The notes beneath the pieces were generated by a model. It ran no database searches, had not been told where the DNA came from, and worked only from the letters and a program-made list of their open reading frames with translations. The position numbers were made by a program, and so were the translations under genes. From positions 186,001-250,000 of the forward strand of contig NZ_PVZV01000010.1 in the NCBI RefSeq assembly GCF_002995495.1: a stretch of 64,000 bases of DNA, given 5' to 3'. Numbering within the stretch: position 1 is the first letter of the stretch; each line of letters starts with the position of its first letter. Below, piece after piece: positions 47,730 to 57,494 of this stretch. This DNA comes from Actinocorallia populi. GTDB taxonomy: Bacteria > Actinomycetota > Actinomycetes > Streptosporangiales > Streptosporangiaceae.

Positions 47730-48188
47730 ATGCGCACGTTCGCCGACCTGGACGAGTTCGCCACCGCCGTGGGAGAGGAGCTCGGCCACAGCGAGTGGCA
47801 GGAGGTCACCCAGGAGCAGGTGGACAAGTTCGCGGACGCCACCGGCGACCACCAGTGGATCCACGTCGATCCCGAGCGCGCCGCCGCCGAGGGCCCCTTC
47901 GGCGGCACCATCGCCCACGGCTACCTGACGCTCAGCCTGGTGACGGCGCACGTCATGCAGACCTTCACCATCGAGAAGCTGTCCATGGTCGTCAACTTCG
48001 GCCTCAACAAGGTGCGCTTCCACACCCCCGTCCCCGTCGGCGCCAAGATCCGCGCCAGGGCGACGCTGATGGACCTGAAGAACTCCCCGGCGGGCCGCCT
48101 GGGCACCCTCAAGGTCACCATGGAGATCGACGGCCAGCGCCGCCCCGCCTGCGTCGCCGAGGTCCTCGCCCTCTACCGCAACGACTGA
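47730..48188 (+). CDS. MaoC family dehydratase, 152 aa
   Basis: Hot-dog fold (R)-specific enoyl-CoA hydratase. The hydratase-2 motif is FADATGDHQWIHVDPERAA near residues 33-52, with catalytic Asp and His in place. A GAGGAG lies a few bases upstream of the ATG at 47730. It probably acts in fatty acid or polyketide metabolism. It follows the oxygenase in the same direction after 71 bases. Confidence 0.9.
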   Translation: MRTFADLDEFATAVGEELGHSEWQEVTQEQVDKFADATGDHQWIHVDPERAAAEGPFGGTIAHGYLTLSLVTAHVMQTFTIEKLSMVVNFGLNKVRFHTPVPVGAKIRARATLMDLKNSPAGRLGTLKVTMEIDGQRRPACVAEVLALYRND

Positions 48189-48194
48189 GGCCCG

Positions 48195-48992
48195 TCACGC
48201 GTCGCGGGCGCGCAGCGCCGCCCAGCCGCCCGCGACCGCGGCGGCCGCCCACAGGAGGAGCACCGGCAGCGCGGTCCCGCCGCCGTAGGGCTCGCCCGCC
48301 CGGGTCATCAGCACGGCGCCCGCGACGCTCGGCGTGTACTCGCCGGCCGTCTCCAGCCAGCCGACGCCGGTGACCTTCACCAGCTCCGGCAGGACCAGCA
48401 GCACCATGATGATCGTCGTGATGGTGCCGGCCGCGCTGCGGAACACCGTGCCGGTACCGATCACGAGCACCGCGATCAGGGCCAGGTAGACGCCCGTGCC
48501 GAACGCCGCCGCGGCCAGCTCGCCGGCGGTGTAGGCGCCGTGCTCGCCCGCGAAGACGGCGGTGACCAGCGTGCCCAGCACGCAGAACACCGTTCCCGCA
48601 GCCGCTGCGACGGCCGCGACGACCGCCGTCTTGGCCAGGAGCATCCGTCCCCGTACGGGGACGCCCCGCAGCGTGGCGCGGATGGAGCCGTTCGCGTACT
48701 CGGCCGTGGTGGCGAGCGTCGCCATCACCAGCACCGCCAGCTGGACCAGCATGATGCCCTGGGCCGCCAGGTGCGGCGCGGGCCGTGCCACGTCGAAGCC
48801 GTTCTTCTCGCTGGCTTCGACCGACATGCCGATGACCGCCGCGAACACCGCGCACAGGAGCACGCCCGCGGCCAGGCTCCACCAGGTGGACCGGACGCTC
48901 CAGAGTTTGGTCCACTCGAACGCGATCGCGCCCCGGAGGCCGCCGCCCTTGGCGGGGGTGGTGAGCCGAAGTGCCGTCGTCATCTCGTTCAT
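48195..48992 (-). CDS. ABC-2 type permease of ABC/two-component module 1, 265 aa
   Basis: Six predicted helices; the start FEWTKLWSVRSTWWSLAAGV is the amphipathic N-terminus seen in ABC-2 permeases paired with BcrA/NatA-like ATPases, and ANGSIRATLRGVPVRGRMLLAK is the cytoplasmic loop contacting the ATPase. It forms an exporter with the preceding gene. ATGA overlaps the ATPase stop. Confidence 0.87.
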   Translation of the reverse strand: MNEMTTALRLTTPAKGGGLRGAIAFEWTKLWSVRSTWWSLAAGVLLCAVFAAVIGMSVEASEKNGFDVARPAPHLAAQGIMLVQLAVLVMATLATTAEYANGSIRATLRGVPVRGRMLLAKTAVVAAVAAAAGTVFCVLGTLVTAVFAGEHGAYTAGELAAAAFGTGVYLALIAVLVIGTGTVFRSAAGTITTIIMVLLVLPELVKVTGVGWLETAGEYTPSVAGAVLMTRAGEPYGGGTALPVLLLWAAAAVAGGWAALRARDA

Positions 48993-49918
48993 GCCTTCCG
49001 GTGGTTCGCGGCGGTGGGGGCGGTAGAGCCGTATTCCACGCTCTCGGCGGTGAGTTCCATGTACGCCTGCTCCAGGCTGGCCATGCGCGGGCTCAGCTCG
49101 TGGACGGGGACGCCGCACCCGAACGCCGCATCGCCGATCTCCTCGGGGGTGCCTCCGGTGACGAGCAGCGCCCCGCTCTCCGGCGTCACGGACATCCCCG
49201 CGGCCCGGAGCCGCCGCTCCAGCGTCTCGGGACGGGGCGTGCGGACCAGGACGGCGTTTCGCGAACTGCCCGCGATGACCTCCCCGATCGGGGCGTCGGC
49301 GATGAGCCTGCCCCGCCCGATGACCACCAGGTGGTCGGCGGTCTCCTGCATCTCGCTCATCAGATGGCTGGAGACCAGGACGGTGCGGCCTTCGGCGGCC
49401 AGGGAGCGCATCAGCTCGCGCACCCAGCGCACGCCGTCCGGGTCCAGGCCGTTGACCGGCTCGTCGAACAGCAGCACGCCGGGGTCGCCCAGCAGCGCGG
49501 CGGCGATGCCCAGGCGCTGGCCCATGCCGAGCGAGAACGAACCGATCCGCTTGCCGCTCACGGAGGCCAGGCCCGCGGTCTCCAGCACCTCCTCGACCCG
49601 GGAGGCGGGAATGCCGTTGCTGCGGGCCAGGCCGAGCAGATGGCGGTACGCCGAAGACCCCGGGTGCCCGGACCCTGCGTCGACAAGCGCCCCCACCTCG
49701 CGCAGCGGATGCCGAAACGCCCGGTAGGGCTTGTCATTGATGAGCGCGCGGCCCTCCGTCGGCGCGTCCAGGCCGACGATCATGCGCATCGTCGTCGATT
49801 TCCCCGCCCCGTTGGGGCCGAGGAAGCCGGTGACCTTCCCGGGCCTGATCTGCGAAGAGAGGCCGGCCACCACCGTCTTCTCGCCGTGGCGCTTGCTCAG
49901 CCGATCCAAAATGATCAT
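48989..49918 (-). CDS. ABC transporter ATPase of module 1, 309 aa
   Basis: Single ABC domain: Walker A GFLGPNGAGKSTTMRMI near residue 35, signature FSLGMGQRLGIA (degenerate LSxGMxQR form typical of BcrA-like antibiotic-resistance ATPases), Walker B VLLFDEPVNGLDPDGV and H-loop VSSHLMSE. The C-terminal part carries the usual 90-residue extension. It probably exports a peptide or antibiotic. The promoter region holds one copy of the shared inverted repeat. Confidence 0.9.
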   Translation of the reverse strand: MIILDRLSKRHGEKTVVAGLSSQIRPGKVTGFLGPNGAGKSTTMRMIVGLDAPTEGRALINDKPYRAFRHPLREVGALVDAGSGHPGSSAYRHLLGLARSNGIPASRVEEVLETAGLASVSGKRIGSFSLGMGQRLGIAAALLGDPGVLLFDEPVNGLDPDGVRWVRELMRSLAAEGRTVLVSSHLMSEMQETADHLVVIGRGRLIADAPIGEVIAGSSRNAVLVRTPRPETLERRLRAAGMSVTPESGALLVTGGTPEEIGDAAFGCGVPVHELSPRMASLEQAYMELTAESVEYGSTAPTAANHRKA

Positions 49919-50001
49919 CGTGTGCGGGCTCCTTTTCCGACTACACGAGGAACCTAGGAGCCCGCCTCCCCGCCGGGCATCCGGCGATCGGCACCGGTCT
50001 T

Positions 50002-50019
50002 CTCCGTCTTTCGACGGAG
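50002..50019 (-). promoter_or_regulatory. Shared inverted repeat, copy 1 (upstream of ABC module 1)
   Basis: CTCCGTC-TTTC-GACGGAG, perfect seven-base arms. It lies 84 bases upstream of the ATPase start and about 67 bases upstream of the start expected from a TAGGTT -10 box at 49951-49956, a position suited to an activating response regulator. Confidence 0.6.
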
Positions 50020-50043
50020 CCGGCCGCGACGGCCGGGCCGTCC

Positions 50044-50679
50044 TCAGCGGCGGATGAGGCCGAGATCGGTGGCCGCGGCGACGGCGGCGGTGCGGGAGTC
50101 GACGCCGAGCTTCACGTAGACGCGGGCCAGATGGGACTTGACGGTGCCCTCGGTGAGGTGGAGCCGCTCGGCGACGCGCTGGTTGGACAGGCCCTCGGCG
50201 ACCAGTCCGAGGACCTCGGTCTCGCGGCGGGTCAGCGAGCTGTGCGGGGCGCGCAGGCGGTTCATGAGACGGTCGGCGACGGCCGGGGCGAGGATGGTGC
50301 GGCCGGCCGCGGCGGTGCGCACGGCGGCGGCCAGGTCCTCGGGCGGCGCGTCCTTGAGGATGTAGCCGGTGGCCCCGGCCTCGATGGCGGGCAGGGTGTC
50401 GGCGTCGGTGTCGTAGGTGGTGACGATCAGGACGCGCGGGGCCGCGGGGCGGGCTGTGATCGCGGCTGTGGCCTCGGCGCCGTTCATCCCCCCGCCGAAC
50501 TGCAGGTCCATCAGCACCACGTCGATGTCGCCGGCGGCGGCGCGCACGACGGCCTCCTCCGCGGTGGCGGCCTCGGCCGTCACCGCCATGCCGGGTTCGG
50601 TCTCCAGCACGGCGCGCAGCCCGGCCCGCACCACGGGGTGGTCGTCGGCCAGAAGGAGGCGGATCGGGTCCCCGGTCAT
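50044..50679 (-). CDS. NarL/LuxR-type response regulator of module 1, 211 aa
   Basis: Receiver domain (residues 6-122) with acidic pair D12/D13, phospho-acceptor D58 (VLMDLQF), Thr near 89 and Lys near 110; C-terminal LuxR HTH (about 148-205: LTRRETEVLGLVAEGLSNQRVAERLHLTEGTVKSHLARV). It would be phosphorylated by the kinase just upstream, whose stop overlaps its start (ATGA). The shared inverted repeats are the natural candidate binding sites. Confidence 0.92.
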   Translation of the reverse strand: MTGDPIRLLLADDHPVVRAGLRAVLETEPGMAVTAEAATAEEAVVRAAAGDIDVVLMDLQFGGGMNGAEATAAITARPAAPRVLIVTTYDTDADTLPAIEAGATGYILKDAPPEDLAAAVRTAAAGRTILAPAVADRLMNRLRAPHSSLTRRETEVLGLVAEGLSNQRVAERLHLTEGTVKSHLARVYVKLGVDSRTAAVAAATDLGLIRR

Positions 50680-51875
50680 GGGCGTGCCTCGGATTCGGTG
50701 TCGGCGAGCGGGATCCGGGCGGCCAGGGCGGTGCCCCGGCCGGGCGCGGACGTGACGGTGAGGGCGCCGCCGAGGGCGTCCAGCCTGGCGCGCATGGCGG
50801 CCAGGCCGAACCCGCCGCCGTCCGGACCGGGCTCGGGCGGCAGGTCCGCGTCGAAGCCCGCGCCGTCGTCGACGACGTCCAGGGCCACCCGGCCGCCCGG
50901 ATAGCCGAGGGAGACCTCGGCGTTGGCGGCGCGGGCGTGGCGGACGGTGTTGGCGAGGGCGGACTGGGCGACGCGCAGCAGGGCCACCTCGTACGCGGTG
51001 GGCAGCGGCACGGGGTCGCCGGTGAGGCGGAAGGCCACGGCGAGCCGGTGGCGGGCCGAGGTGGTGGCGCACAGGCGTTCCAGCGCGTCGGCCAGGGTGC
51101 CGGCCGCCAGGGCCGGCGGGCTCAGGGCGGCGACGAAGCGGCGGGCCTCGGCGAGGTTGTCCACGGCTGCGTGGCGGGCCTGGTCCACGTAGCGGGCCGC
51201 GGTCTCGGGCCGGCCGGGCAGGGCGCGTTCGGCGGCGCGCAGCAGCAGCTGGATGCTGGACAGCCCCTGGGCGAGGGTGTCGTGGATCTCGCGGGCGAGG
51301 CGTTCGCGCTCCTCCAGGACACCGGCGGTGTGCTGGGCGGCGGCCAGGTCGGCGCGGGTGGCGGTCAGCTCCTCGATGAGCTCGCTGCGGCGTTCGCTCT
51401 CCCGGTAGAGGGCCTGGTAGCCCAGCACCACCGCGACCGCCACCGCCGCGCCGAGCGCCGGACCGATCACGGTGGCCGGGCCGACGGCTCCGGTGTGGAC
51501 GGTGAAACCGGTGATCGCCGCGAGCGCCGTCGCCGACACCGCTGCGATCCCGGCGCGGCGCGGCAGCAGGTGGAGCTGCAGGAAGTACAGCGGGAAGGCG
51601 ACCCACACCCCGTCGGCGGACAGCGCCAGCAGCACCAGCCAGACCGCGCCCGTGGCGGCCAGCCACGACGCCGCGGCGCGCCGGGACCGGGTGACCGCGG
51701 GCAGGAGCGGGCCCGCGGCGTACACCAGCGCGCACGCCCCGGCCGCGGCCACGACCGCTCCCGCGCCCGGCACGCCCCCGGCCACGGCGCGGACCGCCGT
51801 CAGGGCGAGCAGGCCGACGATCAGCAGGTGCAGGCACCAGGTCAGGGCCCTGGTGGTGGGAGTCAGCGCGTTCAC
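50676..51875 (-). CDS. Sensor histidine kinase of module 1 (HisKA_3/HATPase), 399 aa
   Basis: An N-terminal block of about five helices (residues 10-160) serves as membrane anchor with no visible large external domain. The phospho-acceptor His is in LAREIHDTLAQGLSSIQLLL near residue 198 and the ATPase has GFGLAAMRARLDALGG. This is the DesK/LiaS-like group. It starts with GTG at 51875, preceded by TAGGCT (51895-51900) as -10 box. The shared repeat copy 2 lies over its -35 region. Confidence 0.9.
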   Translation of the reverse strand: MNALTPTTRALTWCLHLLIVGLLALTAVRAVAGGVPGAGAVVAAAGACALVYAAGPLLPAVTRSRRAAASWLAATGAVWLVLLALSADGVWVAFPLYFLQLHLLPRRAGIAAVSATALAAITGFTVHTGAVGPATVIGPALGAAVAVAVVLGYQALYRESERRSELIEELTATRADLAAAQHTAGVLEERERLAREIHDTLAQGLSSIQLLLRAAERALPGRPETAARYVDQARHAAVDNLAEARRFVAALSPPALAAGTLADALERLCATTSARHRLAVAFRLTGDPVPLPTAYEVALLRVAQSALANTVRHARAANAEVSLGYPGGRVALDVVDDGAGFDADLPPEPGPDGGGFGLAAMRARLDALGGALTVTSAPGRGTALAARIPLADTESEARP

Positions 51876-51912
51876 GATCGTCCCAGCCTACGAACCCGTT
51901 CCCCCTCCTACA

Positions 51913-51928
51913 TCCATCGAAAGACACA
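51913..51928. promoter_or_regulatory. Shared inverted repeat, copy 2 (between the two modules)
   Basis: Read on the minus strand it is TGTGTC-TTTC-GATGGA, an imperfect form of TCYGTC-TTTC-GACRGA. Its centre is 45 bases from the GTG of the module 1 kinase, nearly the same distance as copy 3 to the module 2 kinase (44 bases). Confidence 0.5.
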
Positions 51929-52045
51929 ACCCCGCGGCCTCCTTCCGGCCCGCGAAGACTCCTCCTCCGCCGGATGCCCGGACCCGGTCCGTGCGGCGAC
52001 GGTGGAGGCGCACCGTTTCCGCCGACGGAAGGGAAGGTCCGGAAA

Positions 52046-53134
52046 GTGTTCGTCGCCTGGAGGGACCTGAAGTTCGCCAAGGGGCGGTTCGCCCTGATGG
52101 CAGCCGTCATCGTGCTGATCACCCTGCTGGTCGGCCTGCTGTCGGGGCTGACCGCCGGGCTGGCCCGGCAGAACGTCTCCGCGATCACCGGCCTGCCCGG
52201 GACGGAGATCGCCTTCGCCGCCCCCGGCGGCGGGCAGGACCTGTCGTACTCCGGTTCCGCCGTCACCCGCGGCCAGTGGGAGCGCTGGGCCGGGGTCCCC
52301 GGGGTGCGAAGCGCCGAGCCGCTGGGGATCTCCACCACCAGGGCCGCCGCCGGCGGCAGGACCGCCGGGGTCTCCGTCTTCGGCGTCGAACCCGGCTCCG
52401 CCCTGGCTCCCGCGGGCGAGAAGATCCGCGACCGCGCGGCGGTGCTGTCCGCCACCGCCGCCGCCGGCCTCGGCGTGCGCGCGGGCGGCACCTTCACCCT
52501 CGCCGGACGGGAACTCACCGTGGCCGCCGTCGCCGGTGACGCCTTCTTCAGCCACACCCCGGTCATCTGGACCGCCCTGGACGCCTGGCGTACGACCGCC
52601 CCGCCCTCCGGCGGCTCCGGCGGGCCCGAGGCGACCGTGATCGTCCTGAACACCGGCCCCGGCGCGGACCTCGCGGCCGCCGACCGGGCGGCGGGCACGA
52701 GGACGGTCTCCAGGGACGCGTCCTTGGCCGCGATCGGCTCCTACGCCTCCGAGAACGGCTCCCTGCAACTGATGCGCGGCTTCCTGTTCGCCATCTCCGC
52801 CCTGATCATCGGCGCCTTCTTCACCGTGTGGACCATCCAGCGCAGCGGCGACATCGCCGTCCTCAAGGCGCTGGGCGCCTCCACCGCGGGCCTGCTGCGC
52901 GACGCCCTCGGCCAGGCCGCCGTCCTGCTGACCGGCGGCACGCTGGCCGGCACCGCGATCGCCGCCGCCGTCGGCGCGGCCGTCTCCCGGGGGGACGTGC
53001 CCTTCCTCCTCACCCCCGCCACCGTCCTCCTCCCGGCCGCCGTGATGATCCTCCTCGGCGTGCTCGGGGCCGCCCTGTCCGTCCACCGCATCGCCTCCGT
53101 CGACCCGCTGACCGCACTGGGGAGCACCCGATGA
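52046..53134 (+). CDS. FtsX-like ABC permease of module 2, 362 aa
   Basis: One N-terminal helix (residues about 17-40), a roughly 210-residue extracytoplasmic domain (MacB-like: SITGLPGTEIAFA to TVSRDASLAAIGS), then three C-terminal helices (about 240-262, 285-310, 325-350). This is the MacB/FtsX layout. It starts at GTG 52046 with GGAAGG upstream. The next gene overlaps its stop by four bases. Confidence 0.88.
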   Translation: MFVAWRDLKFAKGRFALMAAVIVLITLLVGLLSGLTAGLARQNVSAITGLPGTEIAFAAPGGGQDLSYSGSAVTRGQWERWAGVPGVRSAEPLGISTTRAAAGGRTAGVSVFGVEPGSALAPAGEKIRDRAAVLSATAAAGLGVRAGGTFTLAGRELTVAAVAGDAFFSHTPVIWTALDAWRTTAPPSGGSGGPEATVIVLNTGPGADLAAADRAAGTRTVSRDASLAAIGSYASENGSLQLMRGFLFAISALIIGAFFTVWTIQRSGDIAVLKALGASTAGLLRDALGQAAVLLTGGTLAGTAIAAAVGAAVSRGDVPFLLTPATVLLPAAVMILLGVLGAALSVHRIASVDPLTALGSTR

Positions 53135-53811
53135 GCCTCGACCTGCACGACGTCACCCTCACCTACCCCGACGGCGACGGCCGGCTGACCGCCCTCGACC
53201 GCGTCACCCTGAACGTGCCCGGGGGCGGCCTCACCGCGGTCGTCGGCCCCTCCGGGTCGGGGAAGTCCAGCCTCCTCGCCGTCGCAGCCACCCTCATCGC
53301 CCCCGACCGCGGCACCGTCGTCATCGACGGCACCGAGACCACCGGCATGACCCGCGGCGAGCTCACCGGGCTGCGCCGCCGCAAGGTCGGCATCGTCTTC
53401 CAGCAGGCCAACCTCATCCCCTCCCTCACCGCCGCCGAACAGCTCCAGGTCATGGCCCGCCTCGACGGCCGCTCCCCCGCCGGGGCCAGGACCCGCGCGA
53501 TGGAGCTGCTCGAGGCCGTCGGCCTCGCCGGCCAGGCCGCCCGCCGCCCCCACGGCCTCTCCGGCGGCCAGCGCCAGCGCGTCAACATCGCCCGCGCCCT
53601 GATGAACGACCCCGCCGTCCTCCTGGTCGACGAGCCCACCAGCGCCCTCGACCACGAACGCGGCGCCGCCGTCATCGAGCTGATCACCGGCCTCACCCGG
53701 CGGCGGGGCACCGCCACCGTCCTGGTCACCCACGACCGCGCCCATCTCGCCGCCGCCGACCGGATCGTCCAGGTCCACGACGGGCGCCTCCGGCACACCG
53801 CCGCCCCCTGA
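53131..53811 (+). CDS. ABC ATPase of module 2 (MacB/LolD type), 226 aa
   Basis: Walker A VGPSGSGKSSLLAV near residue 38, signature LSGGQRQRVNIA near 140, Walker B VLLVDEPTSALDHE and H-loop VTHDRAHL. This is the LolD/MacB ATPase family that works with FtsX-like permeases. It could drive release or export of a peptide or lipoprotein. The kinase gene follows 54 bases later across the shared repeat copy 3. Confidence 0.9.
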   Translation: MSLDLHDVTLTYPDGDGRLTALDRVTLNVPGGGLTAVVGPSGSGKSSLLAVAATLIAPDRGTVVIDGTETTGMTRGELTGLRRRKVGIVFQQANLIPSLTAAEQLQVMARLDGRSPAGARTRAMELLEAVGLAGQAARRPHGLSGGQRQRVNIARALMNDPAVLLVDEPTSALDHERGAAVIELITGLTRRRGTATVLVTHDRAHLAAADRIVQVHDGRLRHTAAP

Positions 53812-53814
53812 TCC

Positions 53815-53830
53815 TCTGTCTTTCGACAGA
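53815..53830 (+). promoter_or_regulatory. Shared inverted repeat, copy 3 (upstream of module 2 kinase)
   Basis: TCTGTC-TTTC-GACAGA with perfect six-base arms. A TATAGC -10 box (53852-53857) lies just downstream, so the repeat covers the -35 region, centred near -42. Confidence 0.6.
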
Positions 53831-53851
53831 TCCGGACCCCGGCGCCGCTCT

Positions 53852-53866
53852 TATAGCCTGCTGGAA
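53852..53866 (+). promoter_or_regulatory. -10 box of leaderless module 2 kinase promoter
   Basis: TATAGC at 53852-53857 ends eight bases before the ATG at 53866, so the transcript should begin at or next to the start codon. Confidence 0.4.
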
Positions 53867-55440
53867 TGCAGCGACGGCAGCCGTTCGACCGGAAGGACCT
53901 CCTGCTCCCGGCCCTCCTCCTGGCGCCCTCGGTGCTGGAGAGCAGCACCCTGACCGAGCGGCCCGCCGCGTCCGCGGGCGCGGCCGCCGTCATCGTCCTG
54001 GCCGCCGCGGTGCGGCGGGCCTCCCCCCTGTACTCCCTGCTCCTGACCTCCGCGCTGGTCCTCTTCACGCTGTGGCTCGACGGGAGCATGTGGACGTTCC
54101 TGGCCTGCTTCGTCCTGAGCTGCCTGGCGGGGCGGCGGGGGACCGGGCTCGGGGCGGCGCACGCCGTGTTCGCCCTGACGGGGACGGCGGGCGCGGTGCT
54201 GGTCACCGCCTCCGGGGAGACCGAGAGGCTGATCACCCTGCTGATGCTCGGGTTCGCCGGCTGCGTCCTGCCGTGGTGGGCGGGCGACTGGTGGCGGCAG
54301 CGCTCCCGGCTGGCGGAGGCCGGGTGGGAGCGGGCCGAGCGGCTGGAACGCGAGCAGCTCTTCGCCGCCGAGCAGGCGCGGCTCAGGGAGCGCGCGCACA
54401 TCGCCCGCGACATCCACGACTCCCTCGGCCACGAGCTCAGCGTGATGGCGCTGCTGGCGGGCGGTCTGGAACTCGCTCCCGACCTGCCCGACCGGCACCG
54501 CGAGTCCGCGGCCCGGCTGCGCGAACGCTCCACCCTGGCCATCGAGCGGCTGCACGAGGCCATCGGGCTGCTGAAGGACGGATCGGCGGGGCCGTCCGGC
54601 GAAACCGTCGCCGAGCTCATCCGGCGCTTCGAGCATTCCGGGACACCGGTGCTGCTGGAGGAGGAGGGCGACGACCCCGGGTCGTCGCCGATCGCCGAGC
54701 GCGCCGTCTACCGGGTGGTCCAGGAATCGTTGACCAACGCGGCGAAACACGCGCCGGGCTCGGCCGTCGCCGTACGGGTGGAGCACACGGACGAGGGCAT
54801 CGAGGTGTCCGTCCGCAGCGGGCGGCCGGAAGGGGATCGCCCGGCCGGCGCGGCGGGCGGCGGCTCCGGGCTGATCGGGCTGGACGAACGGGTCCGCCTG
54901 GCGGGCGGGCGCCTCGTGGCCGGTCCCACCCCGCAGGGGTTCGAGGTCGTCGCACGGGTGCCCCGGACCCCGTCTCCGGCCGCACGGCCCTACGACGACG
55001 CCCCCGCGGACGTCCCCGTGCTCCCGGAGCCGGGCGGGTCCGCCACCGCGCTGCTGCGGGCGAGGACGCGGCTGCGCCGCGGCGTCCGTCGGGCCGCGCT
55101 GGTCCCGGTGCTGATCGGCATCGGACTCGTCGCGCTGCTCGTGGGGTTCCAGGTCGCCACCTCGGTGAACACCGCCGTGGCGACGGCCGACTACGACCGG
55201 ATGCGCGTAGGGCAGCCGCGCGCCGAACTCGTCCCGGTGCTGCCGTCCCACTGGTTCAGCGAGCCCCCGCCGGTCATCGTCGAGCCCGCGATCCCGGACG
55301 GGGCCGCGTGCGAGTACTACCGGGCGGGTCACGACATCCTGCAGACCACCGAGAAGATGTACCGGTTGTGCTTCGAGGACGGGGTGCTGGTGTCCAAGGA
55401 CGTCCTGCGCGGCGGCGGCATCCCTGGAGGGAACAGATGA
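53866..55440 (+). CDS. Sensor histidine kinase of module 2 with C-terminal membrane-anchored domain, 524 aa
   Basis: N-terminal helices (residues about 12-140), then a HisKA_3 domain with phospho-acceptor H184 in IARDIHDSLGHELSVMALL, and an HATPase ending GGSGLIGLDERVRLAGG near residue 345. Unlike usual kinases it goes on: a linker, a further helix (about 411-433, LVPVLIGIGLVALLVGFQVA) and about 90 residues with MRVGQPRAELVPVLP and YRLCFEDGVLVSKDVL, resembling the BamE/SmpA fold. The extra domain would lie outside the membrane and may sense. ATGA overlaps the regulator start. Confidence 0.87.
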   Translation: MQRRQPFDRKDLLLPALLLAPSVLESSTLTERPAASAGAAAVIVLAAAVRRASPLYSLLLTSALVLFTLWLDGSMWTFLACFVLSCLAGRRGTGLGAAHAVFALTGTAGAVLVTASGETERLITLLMLGFAGCVLPWWAGDWWRQRSRLAEAGWERAERLEREQLFAAEQARLRERAHIARDIHDSLGHELSVMALLAGGLELAPDLPDRHRESAARLRERSTLAIERLHEAIGLLKDGSAGPSGETVAELIRRFEHSGTPVLLEEEGDDPGSSPIAERAVYRVVQESLTNAAKHAPGSAVAVRVEHTDEGIEVSVRSGRPEGDRPAGAAGGGSGLIGLDERVRLAGGRLVAGPTPQGFEVVARVPRTPSPAARPYDDAPADVPVLPEPGGSATALLRARTRLRRGVRRAALVPVLIGIGLVALLVGFQVATSVNTAVATADYDRMRVGQPRAELVPVLPSHWFSEPPPVIVEPAIPDGAACEYYRAGHDILQTTEKMYRLCFEDGVLVSKDVLRGGGIPGGNR

Positions 55441-56096
55441 TCCGGGTACTGATCGCCGACGACGAGGGCATCGTCCGGTCCGGGGTCCGCGCCATCCTGG
55501 CCTCCGACCCCGAACTCGAGGTGGTGGCCGAGGCCGCCGACGGGAGGGAGGCCGTCGAGCTCGCCGGCCTGCACTCCCCCGACGTGGCCCTCCTGGACAT
55601 CCGGATGCCGCGCCTGGACGGCCTCGGCGCGCTGGAGGAGCTGAAAGCCCTCGTCCCGAGGACCGCGGTGGTCATGCTCACCACCTTCGGTGAGGACGGA
55701 TACATCACGCGGGCGCTCGACCGGGGCGCCTCGGGTTTCCTGCTGAAGGCGTCGGACCCGCGCGAGCTGGTCGCGGGCGTCCGCGCCGTGGCGTCCGGAG
55801 GCGCCTGCCTGTCGCCGCTGGTGGCGCGGCGGCTCATCACCGAGCTCCGCCGGGAACACGTGCGCCCGGAGGCCGGGACCCGGGTGGCGGCGCTGACCGC
55901 GCGCGAACGCGAAGTGCTGGCCCTCCTGGGCGGCGGGTTGTCGAACGGCGAGATCGCCCGCCGCCTCCACCTGGTGGAGGGGACCGTCAAGACCCACGTC
56001 AGCGCGATCTTCCAGCGGCTGGGGGTCCGCAACCGGGTGGAGGCGGCGATCGTCGCCTACGAGGCGGGGCTGGTGCGGGCCTCGGGACCGCGCTGA
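55437..56096 (+). CDS. NarL/LuxR-type response regulator of module 2, 219 aa
   Basis: Receiver domain with acidic D8/D9, phospho-acceptor D54 (VALLDIRMPRLDG), conserved MLTTFG Thr and GFLLKAS Lys; C-terminal LuxR HTH LTAREREVLALLGGGLSNGEIARRLHLVEGTVKTHVSAIF. The recognition-helix segment (EGTVKTHVS) differs from that of the module 1 regulator (EGTVKSHLA) by two residues, consistent with both reading a similar DNA site. Confidence 0.92.
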   Translation: MIRVLIADDEGIVRSGVRAILASDPELEVVAEAADGREAVELAGLHSPDVALLDIRMPRLDGLGALEELKALVPRTAVVMLTTFGEDGYITRALDRGASGFLLKASDPRELVAGVRAVASGGACLSPLVARRLITELRREHVRPEAGTRVAALTAREREVLALLGGGLSNGEIARRLHLVEGTVKTHVSAIFQRLGVRNRVEAAIVAYEAGLVRASGPR

Positions 56097-56147
56097 CGGA
56101 GCCCGTGGGGCGTCCGGGCGTCCTCGAGGCCCGCCGGGGCCGTGCGG

Positions 56148-57494
56148 CTACTTCAGCTCCGCCAGCGCCGTCTCGATCGCCCGGTGGAAGGTGGGGTAGG
56201 CGTAGATCATGTGCTTCAGGGCGGAGACCGGGACCCTGCCGTGGATCGCGACGGCCAGGGCGCTCATCACCTCGCCGCCCGCCGGGCCCGCGGTGGTGGC
56301 GCCCACCAGTTCGTCCCCGGCGGCCACCAGCTTGATGAAGCCCTCCGCCTCGTGGATCCAGCCGCGGCTGGAGGACGACAGCGGCGTGCAGCCCGTGCGC
56401 ACGTCCAGGCCCTTCTCGCGGGCCTGCGCCTCGGTGAGGCCCACCGCGCCGACCTCCGGGTCGGTGAACGTCACCCGCGGCAGCGCGCGGTAGTCGGCGG
56501 GCGGCCCGTCCTGGCCGAGGATGTCGCGGACGGCGATCGCGGCCTGGTACATCGACACATGGGTGAAGGCGCCGTGGCCGGTGACGTCCCCGATCGCCCA
56601 CACCCCGTCCGCGGCGCGCATCCGCTCGTCGACGGTGATCGTCCGCGCGGACTCGTCCAGGCCGATCTTCGCCACGCCGAGCCGACCCAGGTCCGTTTTG
56701 CGGCCGGTGGCGACCAGGAAGCGCTCCGCCTCGAACGAGCGGCCGCCCGCCTCCACGGTGAACCGGCCGTCGGAGTACCCGACCCGCTCCGCCTTCTGCC
56801 CGGTGTGGACGGCGATGCCCTCCCGCTCGAAGACCTGCGCGACGAGGTCGCCCGCCTCCGGCTCCTCGCGCGAGAGCGGCCGCCGGCCGCCCTCCAGCAC
56901 GGTGACCCGGGTCCCGAACCGGGCGAACGCCTGTGCCATCTCCACGCCGATCGGCCCGCCGCCCAGCACCAGCAGCGACTCGGGCGCCCTGGTCGTCTTG
57001 ACCGCCTCCCGGTTCGTCCAGAACGGCGTGCCCTCGAGCCCCTCGATCGGCGGCACCACGGGCTCGGTGCCGGGGTTGAGCACGACGGCGCGGCGCGCGC
57101 GCAGCACCCGCTCCCCCACCGTCACCTCGCGGGGCCCGCTGACGCGCCCGAACCCGCGGACGAGCCGTCCGCCCTTGTCGGTGAACCTGTCGGCGGCCGC
57201 CTTGTCGTCCCAGTCGGCCGTCGCCTCCCGCAACCGCGCGGCGACCGGATCCCACGACGCCCGGACCTTCGCCTCCCCCGCCAGGCGGTTCACCCGCCGC
57301 GCCTCGGCCAGCGCGTCCGCCGCCCGGATCATCATCTTGCTCGGGATGCACCCGTAGTACGGGCACTCTCCCCCGACCAGTCCCGCCTCGACCCCGATCA
57401 CGTCCAACCCGGCCTCGGCCAGCCTCCCGGCGGCGTCCTCCCCACCGGGTCCCATCCCCACGACCACGACATCCACTTCAGTGACTTCAGCCAT
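56148..57494 (-). CDS. FAD-dependent pyridine nucleotide-disulfide oxidoreductase, 448 aa
   Basis: Dihydrolipoyl dehydrogenase/mercuric reductase-like flavoprotein. FAD-binding VVVGMGPGGEDAAGRLAEAG at the N-terminus, redox motif GGECPYYGCIPSKMMIRAADAL near residues 38-60 (Cys-x4-Cys, but Tyr-Tyr in place of the usual Leu-Asn/Val-Asn), NAD-binding LVLGGGPIGVEMAQAFARFG near 170, and the C-terminal dimer domain KHMIYAYPTFHRAIE with the His that normally pairs with Glu. Substrate unknown; it is not in an acyl-dehydrogenase operon. Confidence 0.88.
   Translation of the reverse strand: MAEVTEVDVVVVGMGPGGEDAAGRLAEAGLDVIGVEAGLVGGECPYYGCIPSKMMIRAADALAEARRVNRLAGEAKVRASWDPVAARLREATADWDDKAAADRFTDKGGRLVRGFGRVSGPREVTVGERVLRARRAVVLNPGTEPVVPPIEGLEGTPFWTNREAVKTTRAPESLLVLGGGPIGVEMAQAFARFGTRVTVLEGGRRPLSREEPEAGDLVAQVFEREGIAVHTGQKAERVGYSDGRFTVEAGGRSFEAERFLVATGRKTDLGRLGVAKIGLDESARTITVDERMRAADGVWAIGDVTGHGAFTHVSMYQAAIAVRDILGQDGPPADYRALPRVTFTDPEVGAVGLTEAQAREKGLDVRTGCTPLSSSSRGWIHEAEGFIKLVAAGDELVGATTAGPAGGEVMSALAVAIHGRVPVSALKHMIYAYPTFHRAIETALAELK

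Follow-up and report, generated by a model that had tools for sequence, protein, structure and literature searches.

In Streptomyces coelicolor, AbrA1/A2 together with SCO1742/43 forms a system of a BcrAB-type exporter, a kinase and a regulator, and the main text of PMC4193843 describes positive autoregulation of the operon. The AbrA regulator is listed as NarL-type in a table of PMC9739842. A palindrome of a NarL-type regulator is described in the accessible text of PMC5069765, the OsdR box AGGGCCGATCGGCCCT. Here we examine a gene block at 48195-56096 in a 64,000-nucleotide stretch of Actinocorallia populi (contig NZ_PVZV01000010.1, positions 186,001 to 250,000 of the forward strand; hereafter the window), and three short look-alike elements in front of its operons, named sites 1, 2 and 3. 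The open reading frames (ORFs) and domain profiles divide the block into two exporter/two-component modules. The outer module consists of ATP1-PERM1 on the minus strand and HK2-RR2 on the plus strand, and between these halves lies the inner module, in which HK1-RR1 (minus) is divergent from PERM2-ATP2 (plus). Judging from the sequence comparisons below, it is likely that sites 1 and 3 are operators at which RR2 activates ATP1-PERM1 and HK2-RR2, that site 2 is the operator of RR1, and that the inner module was inserted into a promoter shared by ATP1 and HK2. This reading, with separate operators for two modules nested one in the other, explains the sites better than a single set serving both systems.

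The outer module resembles AbrA1/A2, as far as these sources describe it, in joining a BcrAB-type exporter with a kinase and a NarL-type regulator, and the linkage of an ATPase and a permease with a HisKA_3 kinase and a NarL-type regulator is also found in relatives. However, AbrA1/A2 is one four-gene operon, whereas here each module is split into two operons, an operator is proposed, and one module is nested in the other. The main text of PMC4193843 contains no mention of a binding site, an inverted repeat, TTTCG or an electrophoretic mobility shift assay. The DevR/DosR and OsdR boxes, in the accessible descriptions, are likewise 16-nt palindromes bound by a NarL-type regulator (the binding is theirs), and RR2 and DevR are homologues (3c3w, E 8e-32), but the present sites have a TTTC/GAAA core and other arms, and their targets are exporter and two-component genes and not a dormancy regulon. 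Together with DevR, the solved structures nearest to RR2 are VraR and NarL, and VraR chains carry the TVKTHVS recognition stretch of RR2; the regulons of VraR and NarL are those of Firmicutes or E. coli. RR1, RR2, HK1 and HK2 also match the MadRS models (NCBIfam NF047785/NF047786), and membership was rejected for all of them as their scores are well under the curated cut-offs (for example, 150.9 against 300 bits for RR2).

A description of the operator was not found in the literature searched, which included PMC5069765, PMC4193843, PMC7581861 and PMC9739842 and left IUPAC or logo forms and most subscription papers outside the search; among the listed papers with GACGAAAGTC, titles and abstract starts revealed none on an actinobacterial regulator. 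This silence is no proof of novelty, and the kind of element is already known, namely NarL-type operators of exporter/two-component modules.

Putative operator sequence and promoter spacing

The sequence-only reading had described three repeats with near-identical arms, each preceding an operon of the block and without a further copy in the window. All three sequences are present, the coordinates and ORFs place each ahead of an operon (site 3 lies 50 nt ahead of the HK2 start codon), and a fourth match does not occur at up to three mismatches. The likeness of the arms holds for sites 1 and 3, which are perfect inverted repeats of 6+4+6 (site 1 can be extended to 7+4+7) and fold as hairpins. 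It does not hold for site 2, whose arms form Watson-Crick pairs at three of six positions and do not form the hairpin of the other two; what all three have in common is the GTCTTTCGA core. The genome scan proposed along with that reading gave two exact matches of TCNGTCTTTCGACNGA in the 8.25-Mb genome, which are sites 1 and 3, no place with one mismatch and 19 with two, site 2 among these. The same sequence read backward, as a control, matched seven places at two mismatches or fewer. The 16-mer was rejected as a genus-conserved motif, as exact copies are present in just one of three genus genomes and four of 200 family genomes (the A. populi genome is counted in both), and the conserved unit is the looser CYGNCGAAAGNCRG.

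This operator, CYGNCGAAAGNCRG, is found upstream of many homologues of ATP1 and of HK2-RR2, usually with GAAA on the sense strand of the exporter and TTTC on that of the kinase. The counts for ATP1, HK2 and PERM2 refer to 29 non-self loci each, which are the best-scoring of longer match lists and not a fair family sample. Upstream of the ATP1 homologues, CGAAAG is the most position-biased of 1870 6-mers, and the core at -130 to -75 was found in 19 of the 29. Upstream of the HK2 homologues, CTTTCG is the commonest 6-mer at one exact distance from the in-frame start (-47, in 11 of 29), and it occurs between -50 and -41 in 15. The distance from the core centre to the first base of TANNNT, the predicted -10, is 54.5 nt in 18 of the 19 core-bearing ATP1 promoters, with L106 as the exception, and 17 HK2 promoters have the core where it is expected, 11 of them with a distance of 31.5 nt and three with 30.5 nt. 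The window has 54.5 nt from site 1 to the ATP1 element, 31.5 nt from site 3 to that of HK2 and 30.5 nt from site 2 to that of HK1; the chance of such a match at random window positions is 0.0003 on the GAAA side and 0.0008 on the TTTC side. As the predicted -10 of HK2 adjoins its ATG, the HK2 transcript is apparently leaderless. Transcription would begin near 49944 for ATP1, at about 51878 for HK1 and near 53866 for HK2. Operators of NarL/LuxR-type regulators feature a GTC/GAC dyad around 4 bp, and such half sites in a promoter beside a NarL-type gene are found at sites 1 and 3 in full and at site 2 in part. With sequence, orientation and -10 spacing conserved in some of the relatives, the three elements are very probably real operators in front of their operons, as the sequence-only reading had proposed.

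Chance alone would have to explain this conservation. Short palindromes in GC-rich DNA are easily produced: the window gives three matches at up to three mismatches against a chance mean of 1.07, and 10 of 100 shuffles reach three, so that the three-site set in the window alone is only mildly unusual. The conserved core, orientation and spacing make coincidence very unlikely for sites 1 and 3 and possible for site 2, and as an account of the whole set it is hardly credible.

The hairpins also allow sites 1 and 3 to be viewed as terminators of HK1-RR1 and PERM2-ATP2, respectively, since both follow stop codons (site 1 lies 25 nt after that of RR1, site 3 lies 3 nt after that of ATP2) and site 1 would carry a GAAA loop on the transcribed strand. 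In relatives, however, the sequence precedes promoters, is often an imperfect palindrome and keeps a fixed core and a fixed -10 spacing. A scan of 48000-56500 returned no site with a stem and T-run against a shuffle mean of 1.0, a result that says little alone. An intrinsic terminator as the main role was rejected on the lack of a T-tract after the hairpin and the promoter-front position in relatives, and we regard this explanation as very improbable, though sites 1 and 3 may have a secondary terminating role.

Between site 1 and ATP1, a degenerate operator-like element, CCGGCGATCGGCAC on the plus strand, aligns with CATCTGGCGATCGGCA in genome G705 and CATCTGGCGAAAGGCA in genome G474, and is the counterpart of the first operator of G474. 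Seven ATP1 homologues without the CGAAAG core (L104, L107, L108, L110, L111, L112 and L114) have another upstream pattern in common, in most of them CCGCCAT followed by CCATGG and CCTAGCGT, which is perhaps the operator of a sister regulator. Genome G044 has a divergent ATP1/HK2 pair with the arms of site 3, CTGTCGAAAGACAG (L118:6530-6543); its RR2 is outside the supported clade of the window RR2, and perhaps the arms changed independently.

Probable regulators of the outer sites and of site 2

We tentatively assign sites 1 and 3 to RR2 on indirect evidence, first that operators precede both the HK2-RR2 and the ATP1 operons of one genome. The operator is borne by the two together in several genomes, and in G114, where HK2 and an ATP1 are on separate contigs (L134, L135), both have CTGACGAAAGTCGG. 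An operator at HK2 is present in 20 of 26 loci whose RR has a helix of the TVK-S/A-Y class, versus 3 of 39 of the rest, an association uncorrected for phylogeny that tree clades would inflate. This table has 65 rows, obtained from 84 after removal of the window, 12 duplicates and six loci with the helix unread. When a weight matrix from 36 non-window HK2/ATP1 operators, with L064, L070 and L073 retained although they look misassigned, was run over all window positions on both strands, site 3 ranked first, site 1 second and site 2 twenty-first. The RR residue after TVK was also compared with operator base 4, where S goes with C in 10 of 17 and A with A in three of four, numbers too small and too unclear for a claim.

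The same observations bear on the idea that a different, unlinked NarL-type paralogue binds the sites. A second HK2/RR2/ATP1 cluster does exist in the genome (paralogue L116), with CTGACGAAAGTCGG at its ATP1, and a VTT-domain gene beside another kinase-regulator pair (L169) is likewise preceded by an operator. Against this, HK2-RR2 and ATP1 bear the operator together in several genomes and the helix class of RR2 goes with operator presence, which leaves an unlinked regulator distinctly unlikely.

The sequence-only reading had gone further and suggested one shared regulon, in which each of the three sites would be bound by RR1 as well as RR2 and the sensory systems might act as a single ligand-export circuit. 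The common GAAA core and the same orientation rule at all three sites agree with this, as do RR2-like operators with one mismatch or fewer at PERM2 promoters of L139, L141 and L142, three of the six closest relatives (in L139, CTGTCGAAAGTCGG). On the other side, the outer and inner modules live apart in the relatives examined, site 2 is low with the RR2 matrix, and such cores may be general among related NarL-type regulators. In relatives, the promoters of the two modules have the core in common and differ in the arms. The recognition segments of the two regulators, which had been taken as nearly identical, are alike at the family level only, RR1 and RR2 being 41% identical and TVKTHVS being present also in VraR. 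The sites do look like operators, the action of both systems on the same sites is unsupported, and a single shared regulon appears unlikely to us, though some cross-binding may occur.

Our preferred reading of site 2, which has two mismatches to the consensus, as RR1's own operator is suggested by its neighbourhood. None of the 29 non-self PERM2 loci had HK2 next to PERM2 (flanks of about 1.5 kb; 30 of 57 matches examined, including the window), and none of 20 fetched HK2/ATP1 regions had a PERM2 match. In relatives the inner module thus occurs without the outer one. Site 2 is probably the same kind of operator and belongs to the inner module, and RR1 is the regulator most likely to bind it. 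The six closest of the PERM2 relatives examined have the core, as CGAAAG in five and CAAAAG in the sixth, beginning 122-126 nt upstream of PERM2, compared with 128 nt in the window, and GANNNT lies 76.5-77.5 nt from the core centre in all six. A second core, C..TCG at offset 24, is present in five of the 15 PERM2 relatives that have the first, all among the six closest. The nine more distant core-bearing loci show neither the offset-24 element nor GANNNT at those places. Toward HK1, TANNNT lies at 30.5 nt in L137, L138 and L140, at 31.5 nt in L149 and L154, and at 32.5 nt in L151 and L156, and is absent at 28.5-33.5 nt in L139, L141, L142 and L146.

Nesting of the two modules

For the outer module, the nearest relatives found are those of genomes G630, G705 and G474, from another family of the same class; in the genus holding them, 7 of 121 genomes match HK2 with an E value no worse than 1e-85. 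In a quick tree of 46 rows, the window RR2 groups with exactly these three (SH-aLRT 98), and the second RR2 of the genome (L116) clusters with its counterpart from a genus mate. In all three genomes, ATP1 and HK2 diverge from a single short promoter with no inner genes between them. Both flanks of the inner module in the window align to the same intergenic stretch of about 150 nt in G705, the left one (49919-50035) to its positions 1-119 and the right one (53787-53872) to 61-144. The left and right scores are 61 and 80 for G705 and 57 and 67.5 for G474, reached by 0 of 500 shuffles each. The overlap of the two flank alignments contains the operator, and the alignment left of site 3 is poor. 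G474 has two facing operators 22 bp apart between ATP1 and HK2, and G705 has one CTTTCG core. Because both flanks align to one promoter, the four inner genes lie inside a promoter that is continuous in relatives, with an operator on both sides, and by parsimony we infer that the insertion is the derived state.

How the inner module entered can be proposed only tentatively. It is possible that the RR2 operator itself was the place of recombination, so that each border retained an operator and a two-tier circuit arose, in which RR1-driven transcripts would read through into the outer genes, those of HK1-RR1 into ATP1-PERM1 and those of PERM2-ATP2 into HK2-RR2. The inner sensor would then prime the outer exporter and sensor, and RR2 would boost each outer half from its own operator. 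The gaps are 125 nt from RR1 to ATP1 and 54 nt from ATP2 to HK2, the genes of each pair have the same direction, and no terminator was found.

Several observations weigh against the preferred explanation as a whole. Neither of the other two genus genomes searched has an exact TCNGTCTTTCGACNGA, the ATP1 core at -130 to -75 is missing in 10 of the 29 homologues, and 14 of the 29 HK2 homologues are without CTTTCG at the expected place. The arms in the window (GTC..GAC) differ from the majority GMC..GTC. Among 11 class-level regions, a match at the HK2 spacing was seen in four, L228, L230 (3 mismatches), L231 (2) and L238 (1), of which those of L230 and L231 are weak, and the remaining seven had none. 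In the paralogue L116 of the same genome and the genus mate L117, the operator is at ATP1 only and not at HK2. The ATP1-HK2 gap of G630 has CGATCG-type elements instead of CGAAAG or CTTTCG, so the core is not kept in all near relatives. Furthermore, exact consensus matches in the genome number 10, only twice the five of the control, and a -10 at the predicted spacing accompanies five of them.

These five comprise sites 1 and 3, the one at the ATP1 paralogue (L172), and those in L166 and L169, and the other five, without a -10 at the predicted spacing, may be chance. In L166 (1501-3014) the operator, with 54.5-nt spacing, precedes a gene of the Beta-lactamase family that has a VTT-domain gene as neighbour, and in L169 (1501-2287), with the same spacing, it precedes the VTT-domain gene beside a kinase-regulator pair. 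VraR-type regulators are linked with envelope defence, and the wider matches weakly point in the same direction.

Gene block and proposed circuit

The genes and elements of the block are collected in Table 1. The top NCBIfam model for ATP1, which we take to be BcrA-like, is TIGR03740 (188 bits, under its cut-off of 309.75), and PERM1 matches Pfam ABC2_membrane_4 with 26.4 bits, slightly under the cut-off of 27. None of the NCBIfam models shown for ATP2 reaches its cut-off.

Table 1. Genes and putative regulatory elements of the block (window positions)
Feature	Positions	Strand	Description
PERM1	48195..48992	-	ABC-2 type permease, outer module; ORF
ATP1	48989..49918	-	ABC ATPase, outer module, lantibiotic-protection type; ABC_tran
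TAGGTT	49951..49956	-	predicted ATP1 -10, 54.5 nt from site 1 centre
Proximal element	49981..49994	-	degenerate, operator-like; centre 31.5 nt from ATP1 -10 (hand-counted)
Site 1	50003..50018	-	putative operator, GAAA on ATP1 sense strand; 14-mer CCGTCGAAAGACGG at 50004-50017
RR1	50044..50679	-	NarL/LuxR-type response regulator, inner module; Response_reg + GerE
HK1	50676..51875	-	sensor histidine kinase, inner module; HisKA_3 + HATPase_c
TAGGCT	51885..51890	-	predicted HK1 -10, 30.5 nt from site 2 centre
Site 2	51913..51928	+	operator-like, inner divergent promoter; CCATCGAAAGACAC, GAAA on PERM2 sense strand
Second inverted element	51938..51951	+	weaker, core CTTCCG, 24 bp downstream of site 2 core
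GACGGT	51998..52003	+	candidate PERM2 -10 (not TANNNT), 77.5 nt from site 2 centre
PERM2	52046..53134	+	MacB/FtsX-type permease, inner module; FtsX + MacB_PCD
ATP2	53131..53811	+	LolD/MacB-type ATPase, inner module; ABC_tran
Site 3	53815..53830	-	putative HK2-RR2 operator, TTTC on HK2 sense strand; 14-mer CTGTCGAAAGACAG at 53816-53829
TAGCCT	53854..53859	+	predicted HK2 -10, 31.5 nt from site 3 centre, right before ATG
HK2	53866..55440	+	sensor kinase, C-terminal membrane helix + exported domain; HisKA_3 + HATPase_c
RR2	55437..56096	+	NarL/LuxR-type response regulator, outer module; Response_reg + GerE

In HK2, the ATPase domain is followed by a membrane helix and then, outside the membrane, by an exported domain (residues ~395-524 for this part, 55000-55437) that is about 85 residues long and has two cysteines invariant in 14 sequences. 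A kinase with its sensor at the C-terminus seems unusual, and the exported domain is likely the sensor of HK2. The C-terminal region was matched by tblastn in 83 loci, some of them duplicates; the domain had no Pfam family match at E 1, and its best match among solved structures was BLIP-I, which is weak (E 0.088). A search of genome contigs for loci related to HK2 returned distant kinases only (27 loci, best identity 37%).

The circuit that we infer from these comparisons, including the binding regulator, the activation, the direction of insertion and the signal, would run as follows. HK2 would phosphorylate RR2, and an RR2 dimer on site 3, centred at about -43.5 (with -12 taken as the first base of the -10) and abutting the -35 region, would activate HK2-RR2. 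On the other side, RR2 on site 1 (about -66.5), together with the weaker proximal site (about -43.5), would activate the exporter ATP1-PERM1. Positions of about -43.5 and -66.5 are typical of class II and class I activators, and the operator at about -43.5 suggests positive autoregulation of HK2-RR2. Site 2 would be the corresponding operator of the divergent HK1-RR1/PERM2-ATP2 module, bound by RR1, and this module would have entered a compact promoter that ATP1 and HK2 formerly shared, with an RR2 operator kept on either side. The signal is probably envelope stress or a membrane-active antimicrobial.

Taken together, the results provide one class of actinobacterial exporter/two-component modules with a putative operator and a promoter geometry (about 31 nt for the kinase, 54.5 nt for the exporter), and the regulons of such modules would be partly predictable from sequence. 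The nesting, with the empty site in relatives, would offer a readable case of two circuits becoming wired together.

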